Below, piece after piece: positions 51,405 to 61,979 of a stretch of DNA of 64,000 nucleotides (its first letter is position 1; each line of letters starts with the position of its first letter). The stretch is from Novosphingobium sp. RL4 (GTDB lineage: Bacteria > Pseudomonadota > Alphaproteobacteria > Sphingomonadales > Sphingomonadaceae). The notes beneath the pieces were generated by a model. The model saw only the letters and a list, made by a program, of their open reading frames with translations. It was not told the origin of the DNA and ran no database searches. The translations under genes and the position numbers were made by a program. Location of the stretch: the NCBI RefSeq assembly GCF_035658495.1, contig NZ_CP141944.1, positions 3,064,001 to 3,128,000 on the forward strand, read 5' to 3'.

Positions 51405-52385
51405 ATGACCCAGATCCTGCCCCCGACTTCGGCCGAAGTCGGCGAGCGCCTGCACGGCATGATCCGCGTGTCCGGCGGCACCTTCACGATGGGCTCGGAA
51501 AGGTTCTACCCCGAGGAAGCACCCCTGCGGCGAGTCACTGTCGATCCTTTCTGGATCGACGAAGTGCCCGTCACCAATCGCGAGTTCGCCCGCTTCGTCG
51601 AGGCGACCGGCCATGTGACCGTGGCGGAGATCGCCCCTGATCCCAGGGACTATCCCGGCATGTCGCCGGAAATGGCGCAAGCCGGATCGTTGGTTTTCCG
51701 CAAGACCGCGACGCCGGTGGATACGGCCAATCCCGCCAACTGGTGGAGCTTCGAATTCGGCGCCTCATGGCGCTATCCCCTCGGACCGGGCAGCGATGTC
51801 GATGCGCTTGGTCTTTGGGATCATCCGGTCGTCCATGTCGCCTACGCCGATGCCGAAGCTTATGCGCAGTGGGCGGGCAAGGACCTGCCGACAGAGGCCG
51901 AGTTCGAATTCGCCGCCAGGGGCGGTCTCGAAAACGCCGACTATGCCTGGGGTGACGAACTCGCGCCCGACGGCAGGATGATGGCCAATTACTGGCAGGG
52001 CCTGTTCCCGTTTGCCAACCAGTGCCTCGACGGCTGGGAGCGCACTTCGCCGGTCCGGTCCTTCCCCGCGAACGGCTACGGCCTTCACGACATGATCGGC
52101 AACACCTGGGAATGGACGCGCGACTGGTGGGCCGAGCGCCCGGAAGCGCCGAAGAAATCCGGCGGTTCCTGCTGCGCCTTGAGCAATCCGCGCGGCGGCA
52201 AGCTCAAGGACAGCTTCGACCCCGCCCAACCGCTGGTGCGGATCGGGCGCAAGGTCATCAAGGGAGGGTCGCACCTCTGCGCGGCGAACTACTGCCAGCG
52301 CTATCGCCCCGCCGCGCGCCATCCCGAGATGATCGACACGGCCACGACGCATATCGGTTTTCGCTGCGTGGTTCGGGAAAGCTGA
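51405..52385 (+). CDS. Formylglycine-generating-enzyme-like protein (SUMF1/FGE family)
   Basis: 326 residues spanning a complete FGE-sulfatase domain: start MIRVSGGTFTMGSERFYPEE, core VTNREFARFVEATGH, NYWQGLFPFANQCLDG, NGYGLHDMIGNTWEWTRDWW and GGSHLCAANYCQRYRPAAR. Cys292 and Cys297 (CX4C) align with the two copper-binding catalytic cysteines of true FGE, which most SUMF-like paralogues lack. True FGE converts the CxPxR cysteine of sulfatases and some phosphatases to formylglycine. No signal peptide, so cytoplasmic. No sulfatase in the window. Activity inferred from motif only. Confidence 0.88.
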   Translation: MTQILPPTSAEVGERLHGMIRVSGGTFTMGSERFYPEEAPLRRVTVDPFWIDEVPVTNREFARFVEATGHVTVAEIAPDPRDYPGMSPEMAQAGSLVFRKTATPVDTANPANWWSFEFGASWRYPLGPGSDVDALGLWDHPVVHVAYADAEAYAQWAGKDLPTEAEFEFAARGGLENADYAWGDELAPDGRMMANYWQGLFPFANQCLDGWERTSPVRSFPANGYGLHDMIGNTWEWTRDWWAERPEAPKKSGGSCCALSNPRGGKLKDSFDPAQPLVRIGRKVIKGGSHLCAANYCQRYRPAARHPEMIDTATTHIGFRCVVRES

Positions 52386-52442: not shown

Positions 52443-53183
52443 TCAGCGTGCCAGCGCCAGTGACACCGGAGCGCGGCTGACTTCTTCGACAGGCACGTAA
52501 TCCGCCGTTTCGCGGAATTCGCCGACTTGCGTGATGACACCCTGGTTCACCGCCCAGATTGCCGCCTGGGTCCGGTTCTGGACCATGAGCTTGCGCAGGA
52601 TCGCCTTCACGTGGACCTTCACGGTGGCTTCGCTGATGTCCAGCCGATAGGCGATCACCTTGTTGGGATAGCCCATCACAAGGCAGCGCAGCGTATCGAT
52701 TTCCCGTTCGGAAAGCAGTTCGCTGAGCTGAACCTGCACTTCGGCCTGGCCTTCCGACATGACCTGCTTTTGCGGCAGGTGCTGAAGCAGGGCGCTGGGC
52801 AGTACCTTTTCACCCTGGTTAACCAAGCGAAGGGATTCGATGAGCGGCTCGGAACCGATCTCCTTGAGCAGATAGGCATGAGCGCCAAGCTGGAACGCTT
52901 CCACCATCTGGCCGAATTCGAATTCGTCGGCCAGCAGCACGGCGCGCATGTAGGGATGCCGATCCTTCAGCGCCGGCAGGCTCGCCAGCAAGTCCCCACA
53001 GGTCCCCATGTCAAAAATGGTAAGGCCTATCGGAAGGCCGATCTCTCCGGCGAGAACGTCATCGCAGTCCTTGAAGAACCGTGAACACCTGAACTCGCAG
53101 GTATTCAGGATCTTGCAGATTCCCTCTCTGACAAGGGAATTGAAGCCGACAATCGTCACGCAGACTTCTTCGAAATTCGCCAT
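52443..53183 (-). CDS. LuxR/FixJ-family regulator with degenerate receiver domain
   Basis: 246 residues. N-terminal receiver-like domain: a phospho-type Asp58 (LTIFDMGT) and Lys107 (AYLLKEIG) are kept, but the usual acidic pair is replaced (VTIVGFNS), so Mg-dependent phosphorylation is doubtful. C-terminal LuxR HTH at about 156-212 (LSEREIDTLRCLVMGYPNKVIAYRLDISEATVKVHVKAIL) is intact. No sensor kinase adjoins. It lies beside an AT-rich non-coding block and the surface-glycan locus, which it may control; that link is inference from position. Confidence 0.88.
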   Translation of the reverse strand: MANFEEVCVTIVGFNSLVREGICKILNTCEFRCSRFFKDCDDVLAGEIGLPIGLTIFDMGTCGDLLASLPALKDRHPYMRAVLLADEFEFGQMVEAFQLGAHAYLLKEIGSEPLIESLRLVNQGEKVLPSALLQHLPQKQVMSEGQAEVQVQLSELLSEREIDTLRCLVMGYPNKVIAYRLDISEATVKVHVKAILRKLMVQNRTQAAIWAVNQGVITQVGEFRETADYVPVEEVSRAPVSLALAR

Positions 53184-54292
53184 CGTCTTTCTCTCCTTGA
53201 ATGCGGAAATACGGACGACCCAAAACGTCTTATTGATTTTTTTGAATTACCCTGACGTAACCCGGATGCAGGAGGGAACATCAAGATCTCGATACCTCGA
53301 AATCCTGAAATGAACCTTTACGTGACAATCACCGGATGAACAGACCGAGTGGTCAGCCCCCTTGCGTGTCCCCCTTTTAGCCCCACACCATTAGGTACAC
53401 CACCTTAGAACATATCCTCGTCTTTAAGTCGAGAGGCCGACAGGCGACCTTACCGCTCCGTAAGGATAAATCGTATATTCTTAAAAGAGGCGTATGTTCA
53501 GTATGATAACGCCCCTTTCGGAAAGTTCATTTGGCTAGGTAACACGCGAACCGTATAATTCTGGTACAGCCTACCCCGAAAGAGGTATAAAAGATATAAA
53601 CTCACCCATTTCAATATGTTAACTTTGCGCGCTGTAAATTGCGCAACCGTCAATCGCCACAAAGGTGAATCACCTTCAAGTTCGATGGGCGCCATCATCC
53701 GGGATCGCAGCCGGAAATCGGCAGTTTCAGCAAGGCGACTCGGGAATGTCCGGCCTTCTTCCCTCACGAATTTCGGTGCTTGCGCGTATTCGGGCCATCC
53801 GCCGCAAAGCCACCAATCGATGCGTTTGCACGCACGCAAGGCCGGCCGGGGCCATGAACCTGCCCGCGGCACCGCCCATCGCCCGAATCCCGTCAATGCC
53901 CTGCGGATCGAACAGGCCGTCACCTTACGGGCTGACCGATCGTCAGCTAACGAAGCGCGTCGGAGGTAGCGAAAATCGTTGGCGGGCCACGGTAAATCTC
54001 CGTCCCGAAGGCTTCTGGAGGCCCCCATCCCGCAAGCGGACGACAAAGCAGCCGCCCCGGCTACGCTGATTTTTCCAAGTAATGACCGTAATAGATACTC
54101 ATTACATGACGACTGTCCAAAACGGGTACTTCCGAATACACCGGGATACCTGAAGCGCTGCCTGAAAAATCCGGTTCTTGCGAAAACCGGAATCGCCGTC
54201 TGCATCCGCCCCCGGAAGGCCAGGCGGCGTGTGACAAGAAAACGCAGCCGTGACCGGGCCGTTACGACCCAGGCGGCGTGGACGAATTCGGC
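53184..54292. other. 1.1-kb region without a convincing gene, AT-richer in part
   Basis: Roughly 53200-53650 is clearly AT-richer than the rest of the window and reads like a long promoter/leader block in front of the regulator gene, with several short inverted repeats. 53650-54290 returns to normal composition and has overlapping ORFs on both strands (up to 235 codons) but none with an SD, a family motif or a sensible codon pattern. It may be a decayed gene or foreign DNA. I see no RNA gene. Confidence 0.5.
53448..53465. promoter_or_regulatory. CCTTAC/GTAAGG dyad upstream of regulator
   Basis: Perfect 6-bp inverted repeat with a 6-nt spacer, 265 nt before the regulator start codon. Size fits a LuxR-type dimer site, so autoregulation is conceivable. 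Short, so chance is possible. Confidence 0.3.
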
Positions 54293-54467
54293 CTAGGGCG
54301 TAAACTCATAAATGGCACCATCGAGGTTTGAGGCAAAATGGCTCAGCGCAAGAAGGGAAGGCGCTGGAATATGTCGATATTTCAAGCCTTCCCGACGCTG
54401 CGATGGGCCATTTTGGTCAAATCCATCCGGGACACTCGCAGGCGTGATTAACAGGTCCTGCCCCTAG
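54293..54467. mobile_element. MITE-like element flanked by CTAG
   Basis: A 167-nt segment sits between two CTAG copies (54293-54296 and 54464-54467). Inside are two arms of about 39 nt (54334-54372 and 54377-54415) that are imperfect reverse complements, sharing CAAAATGGC, CGCA, GGGAAGGC and AATAT in order. The ends both start with GG-rich sequence (GGCGTAAACTCAT; reverse end GGGCAGGACCTGTTA). CTAG matches the YTAR target duplication of IS5-group elements. No transposase. The right CTAG supplies the stop codon of the PIG-L gene. Confidence 0.5.
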
Positions 54468-55147
54468 CGCTCGATCGCGCGCACGAGGATGAAGCCTTCC
54501 GCCGCTTCGCAGTAGACGGTCGAACCGCGCAGACGGGCCAGCGCCTCGATCGTGATGAGCGAACGCTCGTCGGGAAAGGGGCGGACCTGGCTTTCGAACA
54601 TCGCAAAGGCATCGAGCTTGCGTTGCAGCGTGCCGGATATGTCGATGTGCACGTTGGGCACGAAAGGCGGCGTCATCGGCGCCGCGTACCAGTTGGTTTC
54701 GGACAGCGTCTCGTAGCAGAGCACCCGTGTCGGCACTTGCCGATCCCGCGGCCGCGCCGCCACCATCGAGGCGAGGAAGGCGAGCTGGTGATCCTGATGG
54801 ATGTCTCCCAGAAACGGCACGAAGAGCGTGTCGGGCTGCACGTCCCGCACGATCCGGCAGAATGCGGCGTTCAGTTCCGCGGCCGGAACGATGTCGAGCG
54901 AGGCGGCCGGGAAATCCAGCATATGCGTGCGGCTCACGCCGATATGAGCATGGGCGCTGCGCATTTCCGCCTGCACTCTCGCCACGCCGTCGGCAGCGAA
55001 GGCGGGCGGGCGGCCGCTGGTGATGACCGCCACCTGCACGTCCAGCCCTTCCTCGACCATCCGCGCCATGGTGCCGCCGCAGCCGAGGATTTCGTCATCG
55101 GGATGCGGCGCGATGACAAGGACTTTTCCATAGTGCTGCAAAGCCAA
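54464..55147 (-). CDS. PIG-L family deacetylase
   Basis: 227 residues with the zinc motif APHPDDEILGCGGT (PHPDDE at 14-19), DFPAASLD and the second metal region FVPFLGDIHQDHQL. PIG-L/LmbE enzymes remove N-acetyl groups from GlcNAc-type sugars or conjugates. TTG start with AAAGGATA upstream, 3 nt after the formyltransferase-like gene, so it is the last gene of that operon. The C-terminus ends exactly at a CTAG of the adjacent MITE-like element, which may have reset the stop. Substrate likely an amino sugar of the local glycan; inferred. Confidence 0.88.
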   Translation of the reverse strand: MALQHYGKVLVIAPHPDDEILGCGGTMARMVEEGLDVQVAVITSGRPPAFAADGVARVQAEMRSAHAHIGVSRTHMLDFPAASLDIVPAAELNAAFCRIVRDVQPDTLFVPFLGDIHQDHQLAFLASMVAARPRDRQVPTRVLCYETLSETNWYAAPMTPPFVPNVHIDISGTLQRKLDAFAMFESQVRPFPDERSLITIEALARLRGSTVYCEAAEGFILVRAIER

Positions 55148-55150
55148 GCG

Positions 55151-56062
55151 CTATCCTTTCAACACGGCGTGAAGCGCAGGCGGCCTGCCCTCCGCCACTT
55201 CCCAGTCGACCAGTTCGATCAGGCCCTCGCCGGTCTGCACGGTCAGTACCCCGCCGCCGTTCGCCATGACCTGCCCGGGAAGGGCATGATGCCGCTCCCC
55301 GCCCGAAACCGGGCGCGATGACCAGACGGTGATCCTGCGCCCGGCGACATGGGTGAAGGCCCCCGGATAGGGCCGCCCCACCGCGCGGATCAGGCGGTCT
55401 ATCGCCGAGGCCGGCTGGCGCCAGTCGATCAGCCCGTCCGCCTGGGTGCGCTTCGTCGCCCATGTCGCATAGCGCTCGTCCTGAACCTGCCTCGGCTGAT
55501 CTCCCGCCGCCAGCACCGGCAGCACCGCGCGCAGCATCGAACGCAGCGCCGCCATGTGCTTGTCGTAAAGCCCCTGCGCGGTCTCGTCCCGCGCGAGATG
55601 GAAGTATTGCTGGGCAAGGATGTCGCCGTCGTCCGTGCCTTCGGCGATCCAGAACAGGCTGGAGGCGGAAATCGGCTCGTCGAGCAGGATCGTCCAGGGG
55701 ATCGCCGCCCGACCGCGCAGACGGGGAAGCGGTGCGGGATGATAGCCGATGGCCCCCTTCGCCGCGATCGAGAGGAATTCCGGCCCGCATATCTGCGACC
55801 AGCCGACCACGAAGACATAGTCCGGCGCCTCCGCGCGCACCATGTCCAGCACTTGCGGATCGTTGGTTCGCGCGATGGGAGCCAGCCGCACCCCGTGCCG
55901 CCCGGCCAGCACCGAAAGATCGACGATGTCGGAATGCCGCCCGTGAAGCTCGGGCGGCAGCGTGCCGATCATCGTCAGCTCCCATCCCGGTACAGCGACC
56001 AGTTCCTCCACCAGCACTTCGGTGCTGCCTACTGCGCCGATTACGACTGCCTTCATCGTCAT
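55151..56062 (-). CDS. Formyltransferase-family protein (sugar N-formyltransferase-like), Asn of active site missing
   Basis: 303 residues. N-terminal formyltransferase fold with GYHPAPLPRLRGRAAIPW at 106-123 and EGTDDGDI at 141-148, then a small C-terminal beta-barrel (AVGRPYPGAFTHVAGRRITVW) as in methionyl-tRNA formyltransferase and ArnA/sugar formyltransferases. In those enzymes catalysis uses Asn-x-His and Asp; here His108 and an Asp (144/145) are kept but the Asn position is Gly106. This matches a sub-branch rather than obvious decay. Probably formylates an amino sugar with N10-formyl-THF. SD AAGG before ATG. Confidence 0.82.
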   Translation of the reverse strand: MTMKAVVIGAVGSTEVLVEELVAVPGWELTMIGTLPPELHGRHSDIVDLSVLAGRHGVRLAPIARTNDPQVLDMVRAEAPDYVFVVGWSQICGPEFLSIAAKGAIGYHPAPLPRLRGRAAIPWTILLDEPISASSLFWIAEGTDDGDILAQQYFHLARDETAQGLYDKHMAALRSMLRAVLPVLAAGDQPRQVQDERYATWATKRTQADGLIDWRQPASAIDRLIRAVGRPYPGAFTHVAGRRITVWSSRPVSGGERHHALPGQVMANGGGVLTVQTGEGLIELVDWEVAEGRPPALHAVLKG

Positions 56063-56095
56063 GACCTTGCGCCCCCGCTCGATCCCGGTCGAAAA

Positions 56096-57331
56096 TTAGC
56101 TGGCGATCGCCCGTGAAGTCGCCGCATCGTGCATTCCGGCCGGGCTGCGCGGCAGATCGTCCAGCGGGTCGGGCGCCTCGTGCAGCGTCGCGGGTTCGTT
56201 CCAGGGTTCGCGCAGGAGGTCCATCTCGTCGAGCAACTGATGATTGACCTTGCGCACATCGTAGATTTTCTCGACGAGATCGCGCGAACGCGCCGCCATT
56301 CCCGCCACCAGTTGCGGAGCATCGACGAAGCGCTGCATCGCCGCCCGCAGAGCGCCGGCGTCGCGCGGCTTCACCAGGAAGCCGTTCTCGCCCTCGATCA
56401 CCGGCTCCCGGCAACCGGGCATGTCGGTGGTGATGATGGGGCGCCCGGTGGCCATCGCTTCGAGGATCGTGCGCGGCAGCCCCTCGCGATAGTAGGACGG
56501 CAGCACGAAGACGGAGCACCCGGCGAGATAGGGCCGCACGTCGCTGGTTCCGGGAATGAACTGCACCGGGAACTGCCGCGCGAGGCGGGCGCATTCCACT
56601 TCGTCGATCCCGGTCGGATTGTCCCGCTCGTAATGGCCGAGCACGCAGAATTCGACGTCCGGATGGTCCAGCTTGATCTGCCTTGCCGCCTCAGCGAACT
56701 CGTAGATGCCCTTGTCGCGCATGAGCCGCCCCACCAGCAGGAAGCGAAGCCGGTTGCGCGGCAGCGGTTCGAGGTGGAACCTTTCGAGGTCGATACCGGA
56801 GCCGGGAACCTGGACCACGTTCTGGCGCGGCGTGACGATACCCAGGTCGATCATGTCCTTGCGGTCGTCGGCGTTGAACACGAAGACGCCGCGCGACCGG
56901 CGCACGGCCTCGCGGTAGAGCCGCGCCACCGCCCAGCGCAGCGCCTTGCCGGCGCCGCTCCCCTCGCTGAACACATAGCCGAGTCCCGACATCAGCGCGA
57001 AGAAGCGCGGGACGCAGAGCATCCGCGCGGCGATGCCGCCGTAGATGATCGGCTTCTGCGTATAGGCCAGAACGAGATCGGGCTTCTCCGCGGTCATCAG
57101 CCGCAGGTAAGCCGAAAGGAGGCTCGCATCCTTCACCGGATTGGTCCCCGTCCGGGCCATCGGCACGATTCGCAGGCCGACCCCCCAGGCCGAAAGGTCC
57201 GCCTCGACCGCCGGGTTCCGGTCAGGCGCCACCGCAATCACGTCATGCCCGTTCGCTTTCAGTTCGCGCAGCAGCGCTCCCCTGAAATTCGTGAGCGAAT
57301 AGGCGAGACTGGACAGGACAAGTACCTTCAT
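56096..57331 (-). CDS. Glycosyltransferase family 4 (PglA-like)
   Basis: 411 residues, GT-B fold. N-terminal Rossmann half begins KVLVLSSLAYSLTNFRGALL; C-terminal donor half has VGRLMRDKGIYEFAEA and the donor-site motif REGLPRTILEAMATGRPII with the EX7E pair. Similar to PglA-type enzymes that add HexNAc to undecaprenyl-linked sugars. ATG at 57331 starts at the first beta strand; 41 upstream residues in frame are not family-like. First gene of the leftward arm, 33 nt before the formyltransferase-like gene. Donor sugar unknown. Confidence 0.9.
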   Translation of the reverse strand: MKVLVLSSLAYSLTNFRGALLRELKANGHDVIAVAPDRNPAVEADLSAWGVGLRIVPMARTGTNPVKDASLLSAYLRLMTAEKPDLVLAYTQKPIIYGGIAARMLCVPRFFALMSGLGYVFSEGSGAGKALRWAVARLYREAVRRSRGVFVFNADDRKDMIDLGIVTPRQNVVQVPGSGIDLERFHLEPLPRNRLRFLLVGRLMRDKGIYEFAEAARQIKLDHPDVEFCVLGHYERDNPTGIDEVECARLARQFPVQFIPGTSDVRPYLAGCSVFVLPSYYREGLPRTILEAMATGRPIITTDMPGCREPVIEGENGFLVKPRDAGALRAAMQRFVDAPQLVAGMAARSRDLVEKIYDVRKVNHQLLDEMDLLREPWNEPATLHEAPDPLDDLPRSPAGMHDAATSRAIAS

Positions 57332-57755
57332 TGCGTAATCGAGCCCCAGGCTGACGGACGGTGCCGCTGCGGCGGGTCTGCGCAAGCCCCTCCCCGCGTG
57401 ACCACCCGTCCTTGTCGACCGAATGATGGCCCCCGGGCCGCTGACCGCAAGCAACCTATCGGCTGATAGCCCATAGAGATGACTGGCGGCGATTAAGGGA
57501 GGGGCGGGAACCGGGACTGGCGCTCCATTGGAGGCATAGTTCTGCCCGACAGTCGAAATCGCCCCCTATTCGCAAGAGCCCCGGCAATTACGGCTGATGA
57601 CTTCATGCACAAGTGCGCGGCCCGAGAATGGTCAATAGATCATGAACGACATGAGGCCCGACTGGGCAGTGGTACGTTTTCTCGCCGGGAAAAACCGCGC
57701 GTCACGCCAATACGGCCAAAACAAACGCGGCCGAACAAACGCGAAGGTCGAAACA
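57332..57755. promoter_or_regulatory. Divergent promoter region of the glycan locus
   Basis: 424 nt between divergent operons, no credible gene. It includes a short dyad CTATC-GGCT-GATAG near 57455 and GC-rich stretches. Promoters for both arms must lie here; no sigma-factor consensus was clear by eye. Confidence 0.45.
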
Positions 57756-59855
57756 ATGAACCAAACCGCCGCGGGGGCCAGCGCCTCGTCGATGTCCTCC
57801 GGTTCCGCGAACAAGTTCCTCCGCGTGCGCAAGTTCGGCTCGTCCGAAGCGCGGTCGCGATCGTCGATCACCCAGTTCAGCCTGCGGCGCGCCTTTCGCA
57901 ACACGGTGCTGATGACGATCGATTTCGTGGTGGTGGCCCTGACCCTGGCCCTCGCGTTCGAACTCATCGGCAAGACCGGCTTTCCCAAGTCCGACGGCCA
58001 TCTCGGCGCAATCCTGTCGTTCGGGCTCGTGGTGGTGGGGGTGTTCTACACGGCGGGTCTCTACCGGCGGAGCTGGCGCTATTTCAGCTTTGCCCACGCC
58101 ATCCAGCTGGCGATGCTGACCGCACCGTCCTTCGCGCTGGCCTGGGTGGCGATCCTGCTGGTTCCCGGCGTCCGCGCCGAGCATGGCCAGCTTCTGCAGA
58201 TCGCGCTGGCACAGTGGCTGTTCGCGATGTCCGCGCTGTTCTTCGTGCGCGGCGCCCGGCGCGCCCTGCGCGAGAAGCTGACGCAGGGCGCCAAGGCGCT
58301 GCCCGCCTTTTCCGACGGCAAGAACCTGCGCGGCGCGCTGCTGGTCGGCTCTCCCGACTGGGTGCTCTCCATCATCGAGATGCTGAAGCGCGAATCGACG
58401 CCCAGCCTGTCGATCTGCGGCATCCTGCTGCCTTCGGTGAACGACACGCTGCTGCAGATCGCCAGCGTTCCCGTACTCGGCAGCCACGACGATCTTGCCC
58501 ATGCCGTGGAGACGCTGGACCTTCAGGGACGGCGCCCATCGCTGGTGATCGCCTGCGACGACGGCACCGACCTTTCCAACCGCGAAATGGCGCGCCTCAC
58601 CTCGCGCGCGCGCAATCTCGGCCTCGAACTCTCGCGCATTCGCGATGGCTGGAGCCATATCCTCCAGCGGAACCACGGCACATCGCCGGACGAGCTTTCG
58701 GTGAAGGACCTGCTTGGCCGCAGCGAATTCACGCTGGAGGGAGAGCAGATCACCAGCCAGATCACCGGCAAGTGCGTGCTCGTCACCGGCGCGGGCGGCA
58801 CGATCGGCGGTGAACTGTGCTGGCAGCTCGCCAGCTTCCGCCCCTCGCGCCTCGTGCTGGTCGAGCATAGCGAATACCACCTCTACGCCATCGAGATGAA
58901 GCTGCGCGAGCAGTTCCCCGATCTCGATGTCCAGCCGGAGCTCTGCAACATCCGCGAGCGGGACGAAGTGCGCCGGGTGTTCGAGAAGCACAGGCCGGTG
59001 ATCGTCTATCACGCCGCCGCGCTCAAGCATGTGCCCATCGTCGAGGCCAGTCCCTGCGCCGGGGTGCACACCAATATCCTGGGCACCCGGATCGTGGCCG
59101 ATGCGGTCTGCGAATTCTCGGCCAAGGCGATGGTGCAGGTTTCCACGGACAAGGCGGTGAACCCGGTCGGCATGATGGGAGCGACCAAGCGCGTGGGCGA
59201 GCTTTACAGCCAGGCGCTGGACATGTGCGGGGTGGACGATGCCGATGCGCCGCGCTTCATGACCGTGCGGTTCGGCAACGTGCTGGGATCGAGCGGCTCG
59301 ATCGTGCCGCTGTTCCACCGCCAGCTGCGCGAGGGGCGGCCCCTCACCGTGACGCACCCCGATATCGAACGCTTCTTCATGACCGTGCGCGAGGCGGTCC
59401 AGCTTATCCTGCAGAGCAGTTCCGCCGCGCTCAGCCAGAACTCCCAGCGCGGCACGATCTTCGTGCTCGACATGGGCAAGGCGGTGCGGATCGTGGACCT
59501 CGCCTACCGGATGATCCGGCTCTACGGGCTTCAGCCGGAGATCGACGTGCCGGTGGAATTCGTGGGCCTGCGCCCCGGCGAAAAGCTCTACGAGGAGCTG
59601 TTCGACATCTGCGAGGAACAGCTTCCCTCCGGCATCAAGGGCATCTTCGAGGCGCAGTCCAAGCCGATTCCCCTGCCCTTCATCTCCCGCAGCATCGACC
59701 GCCTCGCCCGCGCGGTGGAGCTGGGCGACCATACCGAGGCGCGCCGCATCACGCATACCCTGGTCAAGGTGCCGAGCGGAAGCGCGGGGTTCGAGGTGAT
59801 CGAGAATGAAAGCCTGTCCGCCCCGCGCGGCGCCGGCGAACCGCTGAAGGCCTGA
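57756..59855 (+). CDS. Membrane-bound nucleotide-sugar 4,6-dehydratase (WbpM/PglF/CapD type)
   Basis: 699 residues. Four membrane helices (about 55-170), a linker Rossmann region, and a catalytic SDR domain from about 345: GAGGTIGGELCWQLA cofactor loop, AALKHVPIVEAS, QVSTDKAVNPVGMMGATKRVGE with the Ser-Asp-Lys/Met-Lys catalytic set, and GLRPGEKLYEEL. Converts UDP-GlcNAc to the 4-keto-6-deoxy sugar. ATG at 57756 has GAAGG upstream; ATG at 57642 has none. Followed by the aminotransferase after 4 nt. Confidence 0.92.
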   Translation: MNQTAAGASASSMSSGSANKFLRVRKFGSSEARSRSSITQFSLRRAFRNTVLMTIDFVVVALTLALAFELIGKTGFPKSDGHLGAILSFGLVVVGVFYTAGLYRRSWRYFSFAHAIQLAMLTAPSFALAWVAILLVPGVRAEHGQLLQIALAQWLFAMSALFFVRGARRALREKLTQGAKALPAFSDGKNLRGALLVGSPDWVLSIIEMLKRESTPSLSICGILLPSVNDTLLQIASVPVLGSHDDLAHAVETLDLQGRRPSLVIACDDGTDLSNREMARLTSRARNLGLELSRIRDGWSHILQRNHGTSPDELSVKDLLGRSEFTLEGEQITSQITGKCVLVTGAGGTIGGELCWQLASFRPSRLVLVEHSEYHLYAIEMKLREQFPDLDVQPELCNIRERDEVRRVFEKHRPVIVYHAAALKHVPIVEASPCAGVHTNILGTRIVADAVCEFSAKAMVQVSTDKAVNPVGMMGATKRVGELYSQALDMCGVDDADAPRFMTVRFGNVLGSSGSIVPLFHRQLREGRPLTVTHPDIERFFMTVREAVQLILQSSSAALSQNSQRGTIFVLDMGKAVRIVDLAYRMIRLYGLQPEIDVPVEFVGLRPGEKLYEELFDICEEQLPSGIKGIFEAQSKPIPLPFISRSIDRLARAVELGDHTEARRITHTLVKVPSGSAGFEVIENESLSAPRGAGEPLKA

Positions 59856-59859
59856 GGAG

Positions 59860-61134
59860 ATGAAGCCGGTGAACCTTGCGTCCACGCCCGCATTGGCTCC
59901 GATCGAGGAACCGTCAGGCGGCCGTGCCGGAAGCGCCGGGGCCGCTATCCGGCCACGGCCGGTGCACAGCCGCTGGCCCCATCACGAACCCGACGAGATC
60001 GAGGCCGTGGCGCAAGTGCTGCGGTCCGGCAGGGTCAACGCCCTTGTCCATGGCACCGAAAATCGCGCGTTCGCAGCGGAATTCAGCCGCTTCATCGGAA
60101 TGCCGGAAGGCATGTGCATCGCCAACGGCACGCTCACTCTCGAAGTGGCCCTGCGCGCGCTGGGGATCGGGCCGCGCGACGAGGTGATCGTTCCCGCGCG
60201 CAGTTTCTTCGCCACGGCAAGCTGCGTTCTGGCCGTGGGCGCGATCCCCGTCTTCGCCGATGTCGATCCGGTAAGCCAGAACATCGATCCCCGTTCGGCC
60301 GCGCGGCTGGTGAATTCCGCCACGAAAGCGATGATCTGCGTCCACCTTGCGGGCTGGCCCTGCGACATGGACGCGCTTGCGGAGCTTTGCGACACGCATG
60401 GCCTGCACCTGATCGAGGACTGCGCGCAGGCCCACGGCGCAACCTGGCGCGGGCGTCCGGTCGGCTCCTTCGGGGCGGCGGCGTCCTTCTCGTTCTGCAC
60501 GGACAAGATCATGTCCACCGGCGGCGAAGGCGGCCTCCTGCTGTTTCGCGATCACCCGACATGGCTGCGCGCCTGGGCCATCAAGGACCATGGCAAGAAC
60601 TACCTCAAGACCGTGGACGGCGGCGGCACGCCGGGCGCCTTCCGCTACGTTCACGACACGCCGGGCTCGAACTACCGGATGACGGAGATGCAGGCCGCGC
60701 TGGGCCGCTGCCAGCTCGCCAAGCTGCCTCGCTGGCTCGAAGCGCGGCGGCGCAATGCGCAGGTCCTGCTCGATCTCCTGGTGCAAGTGCCCGGCATCCT
60801 CCTGCCTGCCGTGCCATCCGAAGCCGGCCATGCCTGGTACAAGTTCTATGTCCAGCTGACGGACCCCGACGATATCGTGGAGGAACGCCGCCGTCTCGTG
60901 CTGGCGGGGCTGCTGGCGCGGGGAATCCCGGCGGGAAGCGGATCGTGCCCCGACATGAGCCGCGAGCACGCCCTTTCCGGCATCCCGATCCGCCGCGACG
61001 GGGGGCTGGGCAACGCGATCGGCCTGGGGAGACGGACGCTGATGTTCCCCGTCGATCACACGCTGAACACGGCAGACATGGAGCGCATCGCCGAAGGGCT
61101 GCGCGAAACGATGATGGAGACGAAAGCGCAATGA
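59860..61134 (+). CDS. DegT/DnrJ/EryC1/StrS-family sugar aminotransferase
   Basis: 424 residues, PLP fold type I. Key motifs: GTLTLEVALRALGIGPRDEVIVP, IEDCAQAHGATWRGR and the Schiff-base Lys216 in FSFCTDKIMSTGGEGG, then YRMTEMQAALGRCQL. Aminates the C4 (or C3) keto group of a nucleotide sugar, normally the product of the dehydratase just upstream (4 nt gap). N-terminal 30 residues are an unusual Ala/Pro-rich extension. Stop overlaps the sulfotransferase start by 4 nt. Product is likely a UDP-4-amino-4,6-dideoxy-HexNAc. Confidence 0.92.
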   Translation: MKPVNLASTPALAPIEEPSGGRAGSAGAAIRPRPVHSRWPHHEPDEIEAVAQVLRSGRVNALVHGTENRAFAAEFSRFIGMPEGMCIANGTLTLEVALRALGIGPRDEVIVPARSFFATASCVLAVGAIPVFADVDPVSQNIDPRSAARLVNSATKAMICVHLAGWPCDMDALAELCDTHGLHLIEDCAQAHGATWRGRPVGSFGAAASFSFCTDKIMSTGGEGGLLLFRDHPTWLRAWAIKDHGKNYLKTVDGGGTPGAFRYVHDTPGSNYRMTEMQAALGRCQLAKLPRWLEARRRNAQVLLDLLVQVPGILLPAVPSEAGHAWYKFYVQLTDPDDIVEERRRLVLAGLLARGIPAGSGSCPDMSREHALSGIPIRRDGGLGNAIGLGRRTLMFPVDHTLNTADMERIAEGLRETMMETKAQ

Positions 61135-61979
61135 AGGCTCCCAGCTGGCATCCCGATTTCATCGTCATCGGCGCGGTCAAGGCTGCCACGACCTGGATAC
61201 AGGCGCGCCTTCAGGAAAATCCGCAGATATTCATGCCCGACCCGGAACCCCATTACTTCAGTTCCGGATTCGATCACGGCGAGCAATGGTATCGCAGTTT
61301 CTTCAGAGACCGGCCCGAGACCGCGGAAGTGATCGGCGAGAAGTCCGCGGACTATCTCGCCCATCCGCTCGCCGCACACCGCATTGCCCAGACGCTCCCC
61401 GAGGCGCGGCTGGTGCTGCAGCTTCGCAACCCGGTGGCCCGTGCCTATTCGGACTACAAGATGTTCTTCCGCCGGGGACAGGCGAAAGGCCCGCCCGAAG
61501 ATTACCTCCAGGGCGCCGAATCGCCTTATCCGCGGTTTCTGGAAGACGGCCTCTACGCCCGCCACTTGTCCCGCTGGTTCGACCTGTTCCCCCGCGAACA
61601 GATCCTGATCTACCTTTACGAAGACGTGGCCGTTCACCCGCAGCGGATCGTCGAGGCGGTCTCGGCGCATATCGGCGTCGCCCCGGTGTTCCGGAAGGAA
61701 GCCGCGGCGGAACGCGAGAACAACAGCCAGGCCGCCATCCTGCCGCTGCCGCTCCGCAAGGCGCTGGCGCCGCTCAAGGACAGCGTGCGCCCACTGCGCG
61801 GCAAGCAGGTGTTCGAGAACGTGCGTTCCCTGCTGGCACGCGAGATAACCTATCCGCCGCTCAGCCCAGCCCTGCGCGAACGGCTCACCGATTACTACGC
61901 CCGCGACATCGAGACACTGGAGGCGATCTGCGGGCTCGACCTGTCGCGCTGGAAGGCCACGGCCCGGAACACCGCCTGA
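61131..61979 (+). CDS. Sulfotransferase (PAPS-dependent, carbohydrate type)
   Basis: 282 residues. 5'-phosphosulfate loop IGAVKAATTWI (Lys17, Thr20-21; KxGTTxL variant) and 3'-phosphate loop QLRNPVARAYSDYKMF with catalytic-type acidic/Arg residues, then a region like heparan/NodH-type sulfotransferases (GLYARHLSRWFDLFPREQILIYLYEDV). Would move sulfate from PAPS to a hydroxyl or amine of a glycan. Translationally coupled to the aminotransferase (ATGA overlap). Sulfated surface sugars are unusual in this group. PAPS-synthesis genes are not in the window. Confidence 0.88.
   Translation: MKAPSWHPDFIVIGAVKAATTWIQARLQENPQIFMPDPEPHYFSSGFDHGEQWYRSFFRDRPETAEVIGEKSADYLAHPLAAHRIAQTLPEARLVLQLRNPVARAYSDYKMFFRRGQAKGPPEDYLQGAESPYPRFLEDGLYARHLSRWFDLFPREQILIYLYEDVAVHPQRIVEAVSAHIGVAPVFRKEAAAERENNSQAAILPLPLRKALAPLKDSVRPLRGKQVFENVRSLLAREITYPPLSPALRERLTDYYARDIETLEAICGLDLSRWKATARNTA

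Follow-up and report, generated by a model that had tools for sequence, protein, structure and literature searches.

We analysed a 64,000-nucleotide window of the Novosphingobium sp. RL4 genome (contig NZ_CP141944.1, positions 3,064,001-3,128,000; the genome comprises 5.45 Mb in two contigs) and focus here on a locus of six genes in two divergent operons. In the minus-strand operon, a gene for a GT4-family glycosyltransferase is followed after 33 nucleotides by a gene for a formyltransferase-family protein (FMT) and after 3 more by a PIG-L gene, while the plus-strand operon consists of a 4,6-dehydratase gene, a DegT gene 4 nucleotides downstream, and a sulfotransferase (ST) gene that overlaps the end of DegT in an ATGA (Table 1). 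The GT4 gene ends at 56096 and its start is placed at the ATG at 57331, which is favoured over an upstream TTG at 57454; the open reading frame of the dehydratase opens at 57642 and ends at 59855, with 57756 as the likelier start. All six proteins score above the curated Pfam cut-offs, with 83.6 bits for PIG-L, 62.8 for Formyl_trans_N, 70.6 for Formyl_trans_C, 103.6 for GT4, 338 for Polysacc_synt_2 (PF02719), 300 for DegT, and 49.9 for Sulfotransfer_3. The open reading frames, with their order, strands, and spacing, agree with a first-pass annotation of the window, which had described two tight divergent operons with the six genes in this order. No inverted repeat was found in the divergent intergenic region (57332..57755).

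Table 1. Coordinates of the six-gene locus and of the linked regulator in the window.
Feature	Position	Strand	Basis or remark
PIG-L/LmbE-family N-deacetylase	54464..55147	-	TTG start; PF02585; HPDDE and HQDH motifs
ArnA-like formyltransferase (FMT), G-x-H-P type	55151..56062	-	Formyl_trans_N and Formyl_trans_C; ArnA closest; single clade
Codon of FMT Gly106	55745..55747	-	position of the catalytic Asn in ArnA/Fmt/PurN
GT4 glycosyltransferase, PglA-like	56096..57331	-	Pfam; 8DQD closest solved chain
Intergenic region separating the divergent operons	57332..57755		
Long-form UDP-GlcNAc 4,6-dehydratase (PglF/WbpM type)	57756..59855	+	PF02719; 5BJU closest solved
DegT-family aminotransferase	59860..61134	+	Pfam; 7L7X closest solved
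3'-phosphoadenosine-5'-phosphosulfate (PAPS)-type sulfotransferase (ST)	61131..61979	+	Sulfotransfer_3; 3RNL closest solved; signature residues
LuxR-type regulator	52443..53183	-	GerE 69.5 bits; linked with the locus in relatives

The six genes form a conserved unit. A homology scan of genome contigs returned seven loci, and because six of these, all from Novosphingobium, have the complete divergent arrangement, we conclude that the arrangement is not due to chance; the seventh (L024, Galbibacter) is a 27% match without the six-gene locus. The nearest named locus is that of Novosphingobium sp. ST904 with an FMT that is 99% identical. In the 199 family genomes searched, FMT matches 17, DegT 32, and PIG-L 18, and the 14 top-scoring genomes (at least 273.9 bits for FMT; at least 366.9 for DegT, next 343.7; at least 255.3 for PIG-L, next 140.7) are identical for the three proteins. 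We refer to these 14 genomes as class A and to 18 family genomes whose best DegT is 40-46% identical as class B. In 11 of the 14 class A genomes the complete set of six shares a single locus, GT4 and dehydratase genes were found in 13 of 13 relatives' loci, and PIG-L adjoins FMT in class A except in G102 and G164, where the two are 28 and 26 kb apart in the same polysaccharide region. The recurring locus in Novosphingobium together with the shared genome sets rules out that the six genes are chance neighbours; the first-pass annotation had made their co-occurrence in relatives its own test, and they do co-occur.

The dehydratase, DegT, and GT4 steps resemble, by sequence, bacillosamine synthesis without the acetyltransferase PglD. 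The closest solved relative of the dehydratase is the WlaL protein 5BJU (262 bits, next 138), which we take to be PglF; that of GT4 is PglA 8DQD (117 bits, with the next unrelated chain at 49), and that of DegT is the Pcryo_0638 aminotransferase 7L7X (324 bits, next 186). According to the accessible part of the source, the product of Pcryo_0638 is UDP-2-acetamido-4-amino-2,4,6-trideoxyglucose (PMC8040287). Judged by similarity to the enzymes of the bacillosamine (Pgl) pathway, the dehydratase is of the PglF type and DegT of the PglE type, and WlaL and Pcryo_0638 as closest relatives lend support to the amino-dideoxy-N-acetylhexosamine (HexNAc) front end that had been proposed from the sequence of the window.

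PglD was searched for with one query at E<=1e-15, with matches above 160 bits counted as strong. In this search, the window's genome (G000) gave no match. A single one of the 14 class A genomes has a strong match (G196, in a separate second locus), compared with 13 of 18 class B genomes; G107 and G143 of class A and G021 of class B have weak PglD-like matches of 66-78 bits. PglD was found in 0 of 19 class A loci (L018-L023, L025-L037); of the 19 class B loci, 12 have a PglD match, six have none, and one, L061, has a weak 43-bit match away from the gene for the initiating sugar transferase (PGT). Five PglD candidates were checked by Pfam; all have Hexapep, and four match PglD_N, two of them above the cut-off. 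Between its PGT and GT4 genes, L061 has a different formyltransferase with the usual Asn, and the presence of this enzyme at that place suggests that formyl may replace acetyl in a bacillosamine-like pathway. In the class B locus L062 (6116-7733), which has no PglD match, ATP-grasp and HAD genes lie beside those for PGT and DegT, an arrangement also seen in class A loci, and their products may cap the 4-amine.

The FMT carries both Formyl_trans domains, and its closest solved relative is ArnA (131 bits, compared to 89 bits for 10-formyl-tetrahydrofolate dehydrogenase (FDH)). In the alignment, Gly106 stands where ArnA has its catalytic Asn, and His108 and Asp144 are retained. All three residues are invariant in 121 of 121 aligned rows among the matches listed, i.e. 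the window protein, its own database copy (P0001), and 119 others, from a search in which 8000 candidates were scored, 1744 matched, and 120 were listed. Many of these Gly-type homologues are named methionyl-tRNA formyltransferase in their source records among the matches listed, which is probably a misannotation. A tree built from a chosen subset of 68 sequences unites all 25 of its G-x-H-P rows in one clade with a support of 95/82, which is not strong; the clade comprises an exopolysaccharide type (12 rows), a mostly legionaminic type (10 rows), and a PIG-L-PGT-FMT type (3 rows), and two G-x-H-A rows fall outside it. The genome holds four other PF00551 genes, of which three (L076, L078, L079) have the usual Asn, while the motif patterns gave no match in the fourth (L077); a role of FMT as the genome's housekeeping Fmt is therefore rejected. 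The call of a formyltransferase-like gene in the first-pass annotation is borne out, as a formyltransferase-family enzyme in addition to these four. Judged by family and context, formyl transfer by FMT is likely, but the enzyme lacks a defining residue, the Asn. In the accessible part of PMC4388273, this Asn is described as crucial for formyl transfer in Fmt, ArnA, and GART, while FDH has Ile there; in PMC12650200, none of six residue names searched for is present.

The most constant partner of the Gly-type FMT is PIG-L, not DegT. A wider search covered 385 genomes of the class, for which 29 of 43 matches outside the window were read as loci, and 398 genomes of the phylum, for which 28 of 28 loci were read. 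G-x-H-P enzymes were found in 12 genomes outside the family and PIG-L is in the locus in all 12, counting a PIG-L fragment at a contig end in L091; 11 of the pairings are in short loci, and in the twelfth, G813, PIG-L is ~1.4 kb from FMT in the larger stretch L148. By comparison, PIG-L was found beside other FMT-like genes, mostly of the ArnA and Q-x-H-P types, in 0 of 42 loci within ~1.5 kb on each side (less at contig ends), a control that includes L102 and L110 with unrecognised motifs and the G-x-H-A rows L105 and L144 outside the G-x-H-P clade. Inside the family, PIG-L is present in 17 of 17 FMT genomes. Because genomes of one family are not independent, Fisher values for co-occurrence and pairing overstate significance; the calculation used a pairing count of 11/12 and 41 control rows, and the later counts are 12/12 and 42. 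PIG-L itself has PF02585 with the HPDDE and H-x-x-H (HQDH) motifs, which we take to be metal-binding, and its closest solved chains are TT1542 and diacetylchitobiose deacetylase.

Loci elsewhere also indicate which amine the FMT may use. NeuC adjoins FMT in 9 of the 12 loci outside the family, which are loci of the legionaminic-acid type, and in L113-L116 FMT and PIG-L occur with a LegC-like DegT, a NeuD-type acetyltransferase, and NeuC; in L116, scores exceed the curated NCBIfam cut-offs for LegB, LegC, the NeuD/PglB family, NeuB, and NeuC. Thus, the LegC amine in L113-L116 already has an acetyltransferase, and FMT would need another amine, which PIG-L can make. Similarly, PglD adjoins FMT and PIG-L in L038 of G042. 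No DegT was detected within ~9 kb of the pair in L039, L040, L117, and L118, and the free amine in these loci is therefore most simply one exposed by PIG-L; none was detected in L038 or the short L119 either, although G042 has one ~15 kb from the pair in L038. L117 (8679-10378) has the FMT-PIG-L pair with no DegT homologue in 19 kb, no PGT match, and no NeuC within ~1.5 kb (L089). With all terms required, our literature searches returned no paper joining formyltransferase, PIG-L, deacetylase, polysaccharide, and gene cluster, none on legionaminic with formyltransferase and deacetylase, none on sugar N-formyltransferase with ArnA and O-antigen, and none uniting formyltransferase, PIG-L, glycosyltransferase, sulfotransferase, and aminotransferase in Sphingomonas.

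The ST is the least constant of the six genes. Of the 14 class A genomes, 12 have it; G164 and G196 gave no match, and in G102 it lies ~330 kb from the locus; outside class A, one genome (G075) has an ST of comparable score and two more have ~105-bit matches. The best solved relatives of ST are the bacterial sulfotransferase 3RNL and then heparan-sulfate 3-O-sulfotransferase and NDST. Lys17, Glu39, Arg99, and Ser107, which are presumably the 5'-phosphosulfate-loop Lys, the catalytic Glu, and the 3'-phosphate Arg and Ser, are each retained in 97% or more of 121 aligned rows, namely the window protein, its own database copy (P0121), and 119 others. The sulfotransferase called in the first-pass annotation is thus borne out with its signature residues. 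Sulfation of the product, also suggested there, is plausible; two of the 14 genomes with the system have no ST match.

In relatives, the six genes are accompanied by export genes. In 13 relatives' loci, to which three further stretches were added and of which several break off before the end of the locus, tblastn detected PGT and Wza in 11 each, Wzx and Wzc in 8 each, Wzy in 6, a BBP2_2 porin in 9, ATP-grasp and pectate-lyase-like genes in 7 each, and a HAD hydrolase in 6. Families of these genes were assigned from single representatives, and genes in several of the stretches read here, in relatives and in this genome, were called by a home-made open reading frame rule that drops or lengthens some of them. 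On the ST side of the locus in L023 (Novosphingobium sp. PhB165) and L025 (G147) are Wza, porin, GT4, and pectate-lyase-like genes. In Novosphingobium sp. RL4, homologues of the export set lie together at C1:1260969-1275818, 1.84 Mb from the window locus, as GT4, ATP-grasp, HAD, PGT, Wzc, GT4, Wzx, Wzy-like, pectate-lyase-like, GT4, porin, and Wza. The PGT of this set (C1:1263882-1264388) is of the PglC type and 62% identical over 152 residues to the PGT of L031. Flippase, Wza, and Wzc are all present in this genome in a separate locus, while in relatives they share the locus with the six genes. The window locus is therefore best viewed as half of an exopolysaccharide system that has been split in this genome. 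An isolated decoration locus was considered and is rejected on the same grounds. The first-pass annotation had seen neither polymerase nor flippase at the locus itself; its suggestion that the locus may decorate an existing polymer or glycoprotein is unlikely given PGT, Wzx, Wzy, Wza, and Wzc in relatives' loci and homologues of this set, with a Wzy-like candidate, elsewhere in the genome itself.

Altogether, we favour, with a probability of roughly one half, a model in which the window locus is the monosaccharide-making half of a split Wzx/Wzy-type exopolysaccharide system, with PIG-L and FMT exchanging an acetyl for a formyl group. In this model, based on the closest characterised relatives, dehydratase and DegT would convert UDP-GlcNAc to UDP-2-acetamido-4-amino-2,4,6-trideoxyglucose, and the PglD acetylation step would be missing. 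The PGT near 1.27 Mb, encoded with Wzx, the Wzy-like protein, Wza, and Wzc, would load the sugar onto undecaprenyl phosphate, and the PglA-like GT4 would extend the lipid-linked sugar. As suggested by gene association, PIG-L would strip an N-acetyl group and FMT would recap the freed nitrogen with formyl; this nitrogen may be that at C2 of the dideoxy sugar or of a HexNAc added by GT4. The 4-amine might be capped by the same FMT, by the ATP-grasp enzyme encoded in the second locus, or by ST. In the model, ST would place sulfate on the repeat unit. We infer each of the three reactions, formylation, deacetylation, and sulfation.

Several observations weigh against this model. Formyl transfer itself is unproven, since FMT is without the Asn called crucial in the accessible part of PMC4388273, and with PglD absent from class A loci, the amine made by DegT could be capped by FMT directly. 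Weak PglD-like matches (78 and 68 bits) are present in two class A genomes, G107 and G143, G080 and G184 have a PIG-L match (36-38%) and no FMT match at the cut-offs used, PIG-L stands apart from FMT in G102 and G164 (28 and 26 kb), and the DegT that accompanies the pair in G813 is closer to class B than to the window's own DegT. The DegT boundary between the classes (366.9 vs 343.7 bits) was set after the data had been seen. The Wzy candidate of the genome is 32% identical to the relatives' Wzy and has no Pfam family, while a relative's gene is Wzy_C. Finally, the accessible part of PMC6137143, which describes a formylated glycan discussed below, names no deacetylase.

The possibility that FMT replaces PglD, formylating the DegT 4-amine to give UDP-2-acetamido-4-formamido-2,4,6-trideoxyglucose while PIG-L works independently on a different HexNAc at a later step, is close to the view in the first-pass annotation. 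In its favour, 13 of the 14 class A genomes and all 19 of the class A loci are without a strong PglD match, and FMT and class A DegT have identical genome sets in the family. It also has a parallel in L061, where an Asn-type formyltransferase sits between PGT and GT4 and only a weak PglD match lies elsewhere. However, the constant partner of G-x-H-P FMTs is PIG-L rather than DegT, and a PglD/NeuD-type acetyltransferase stands beside FMT and PIG-L in L038 and L113-L116. Because PIG-L is the most constant partner, we favour acetyl-to-formyl exchange over plain formylation of the DegT amine; with FMT also lacking the catalytic Asn, the placement of formyl on that amine is doubtful, and we hold this alternative to be less probable than the exchange.

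FMT and PIG-L could instead act in transient protection, in which FMT formylates the amine, PGT hands the sugar over to the lipid, and the formyl group is then taken off by PIG-L, leaving a polymer with a free or sulfated amine and no formyl. The model for such a scheme is the ArnA-ArnC-ArnD route to 4-amino-arabinose, and with ArnA as the best solved relative of FMT and PIG-L, PGT, and FMT as neighbours in L039, L040, and L118, the scheme has some appeal. It is nevertheless unlikely: PIG-L is unrelated to ArnD, which is of the NodB type, the L113-L116 stretches contain no PGT match, and the Halorubrum glycan keeps its formyl group according to the accessible part of PMC6137143. Still less probable is that the Gly-type FMT is no longer a formyltransferase and functions as a folate-dependent hydrolase, comparable to the hydrolase domain of FDH, or as a transferase that uses a different acceptor. 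The Gly seen throughout the 121 rows among the matches listed would fit such a change, as would the Ile that FDH has in place of Asn in the accessible part of PMC4388273, but His and Asp are kept, ArnA is nearer than FDH (131 vs 89 bits), and in larger stretches, L117 excepted, FMT lies among sugar genes.

The favoured model of acetyl-to-formyl exchange has partial counterparts in known systems. Dehydratase, DegT, and the PglA-like GT4 are shared with the bacillosamine (Pgl) pathway of Campylobacter and of Psychrobacter cryohalolentis (Pcryo_0612/0638/0637), as are small PGTs in relatives, whereas locus and genome lack a PglD match, FMT, PIG-L, and ST are additional, and export is of the Wzx/Wzy type. 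In the synthesis of mycothiol (MshA-MshB-MshC) and bacillithiol (BshA-BshB-BshC), a GT4 enzyme acts, PIG-L then unmasks an amine, and a new acyl cap follows. The same logic of GT4, PIG-L, and acyl cap would apply here, except that the predicted cap is formyl from folate and not cysteine and that PIG-L scores far below the BshB and MshB cut-offs. With the formyltransferase domain of ArnA, its best solved relative, the FMT shares the two Pfam domains and the His and Asp; unlike ArnA, it has Gly for Asn and no dehydrogenase domain on the protein. The ST resembles the NST and 3-OST domains of heparan sulfate enzymes and, as in NDST, co-occurs with a deacetylase, which here is of the PIG-L family.

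The N5 of legionaminic acid is the nitrogen of GlcNAc, acetylated at the start, and the acetyl group on N5 must therefore have been exchanged in 5-N-formyl-legionaminic acid. According to the accessible part of PMC6137143, the glycan of Halorubrum sp. PV6 carries this sugar, and a predicted formyltransferase gene (HrrPV6_1050) lies next to legG. This likens the Halorubrum gene to the 9 of 12 Gly-type loci outside the family with FMT beside LegG (NeuC), and N-formyl was chemically observed in the Halorubrum glycan at a GlcNAc-derived nitrogen. Unlike the Halorubrum locus, the window locus has neither LegG nor LegI. In agreement with this difference, the window proteins score far below the cut-offs for LegB (32.7 vs 475) and LegC (172.5 vs 420), and no NeuC or NeuB model is in the lists shown for ten window proteins scanned.

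The region flanking the PIG-L side of the locus contains further features. A gene for a formylglycine-generating-enzyme-like protein (51405-52385, plus strand; PF03781, 256 bits), with a C-x4-C motif near its end, adjoins luxR, and the order RlmN, formylglycine-generating enzyme, LuxR, and locus is kept in L019-L023. A simple motif scan of the six frames of the window found no clear sulfatase. The non-coding region 53184-53700 upstream of luxR has blocks conserved in five Novosphingobium loci. These blocks include an inverted repeat, TACCT-N6-AGGTA, which lies upstream of luxR in 4 of 75 loci (L020-L023) and may be a regulator site; the window contains no exact match, and an imperfect copy is present there. 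Downstream of PIG-L, an imperfect long palindrome (54281-54470) with 17-nucleotide arms (54334-54350 and 54399-54415) folds strongly and is perhaps a small mobile element.

Extending the exchange to the second nitrogen, we speculate that the locus contains two amine-editing modules, an idea that we regard as improbable as a whole: PIG-L and FMT would swap 2-N-acetyl for 2-N-formyl and an NDST-like ST would sulfate the 4-amine, generating a 2-formamido-4-sulfamido-2,4,6-trideoxyhexose, with FMT-PIG-L as a portable exchange cassette of exopolysaccharide and nonulosonic acid pathways. In this scenario, ST, which is translationally coupled to DegT, would act on the amine that PglD would otherwise acetylate. 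If acetyl-to-formyl exchange is true, enzymes filed as methionyl-tRNA formyltransferase in numerous database records would be carbohydrate enzymes with an altered active site and a deacetylase partner. The exchange would also provide a general route to N-formyl sugars at a GlcNAc-derived nitrogen, where no amine is free before acetyl removal, and would explain the origin of sugars such as 5-N-formyl-legionaminic acid.

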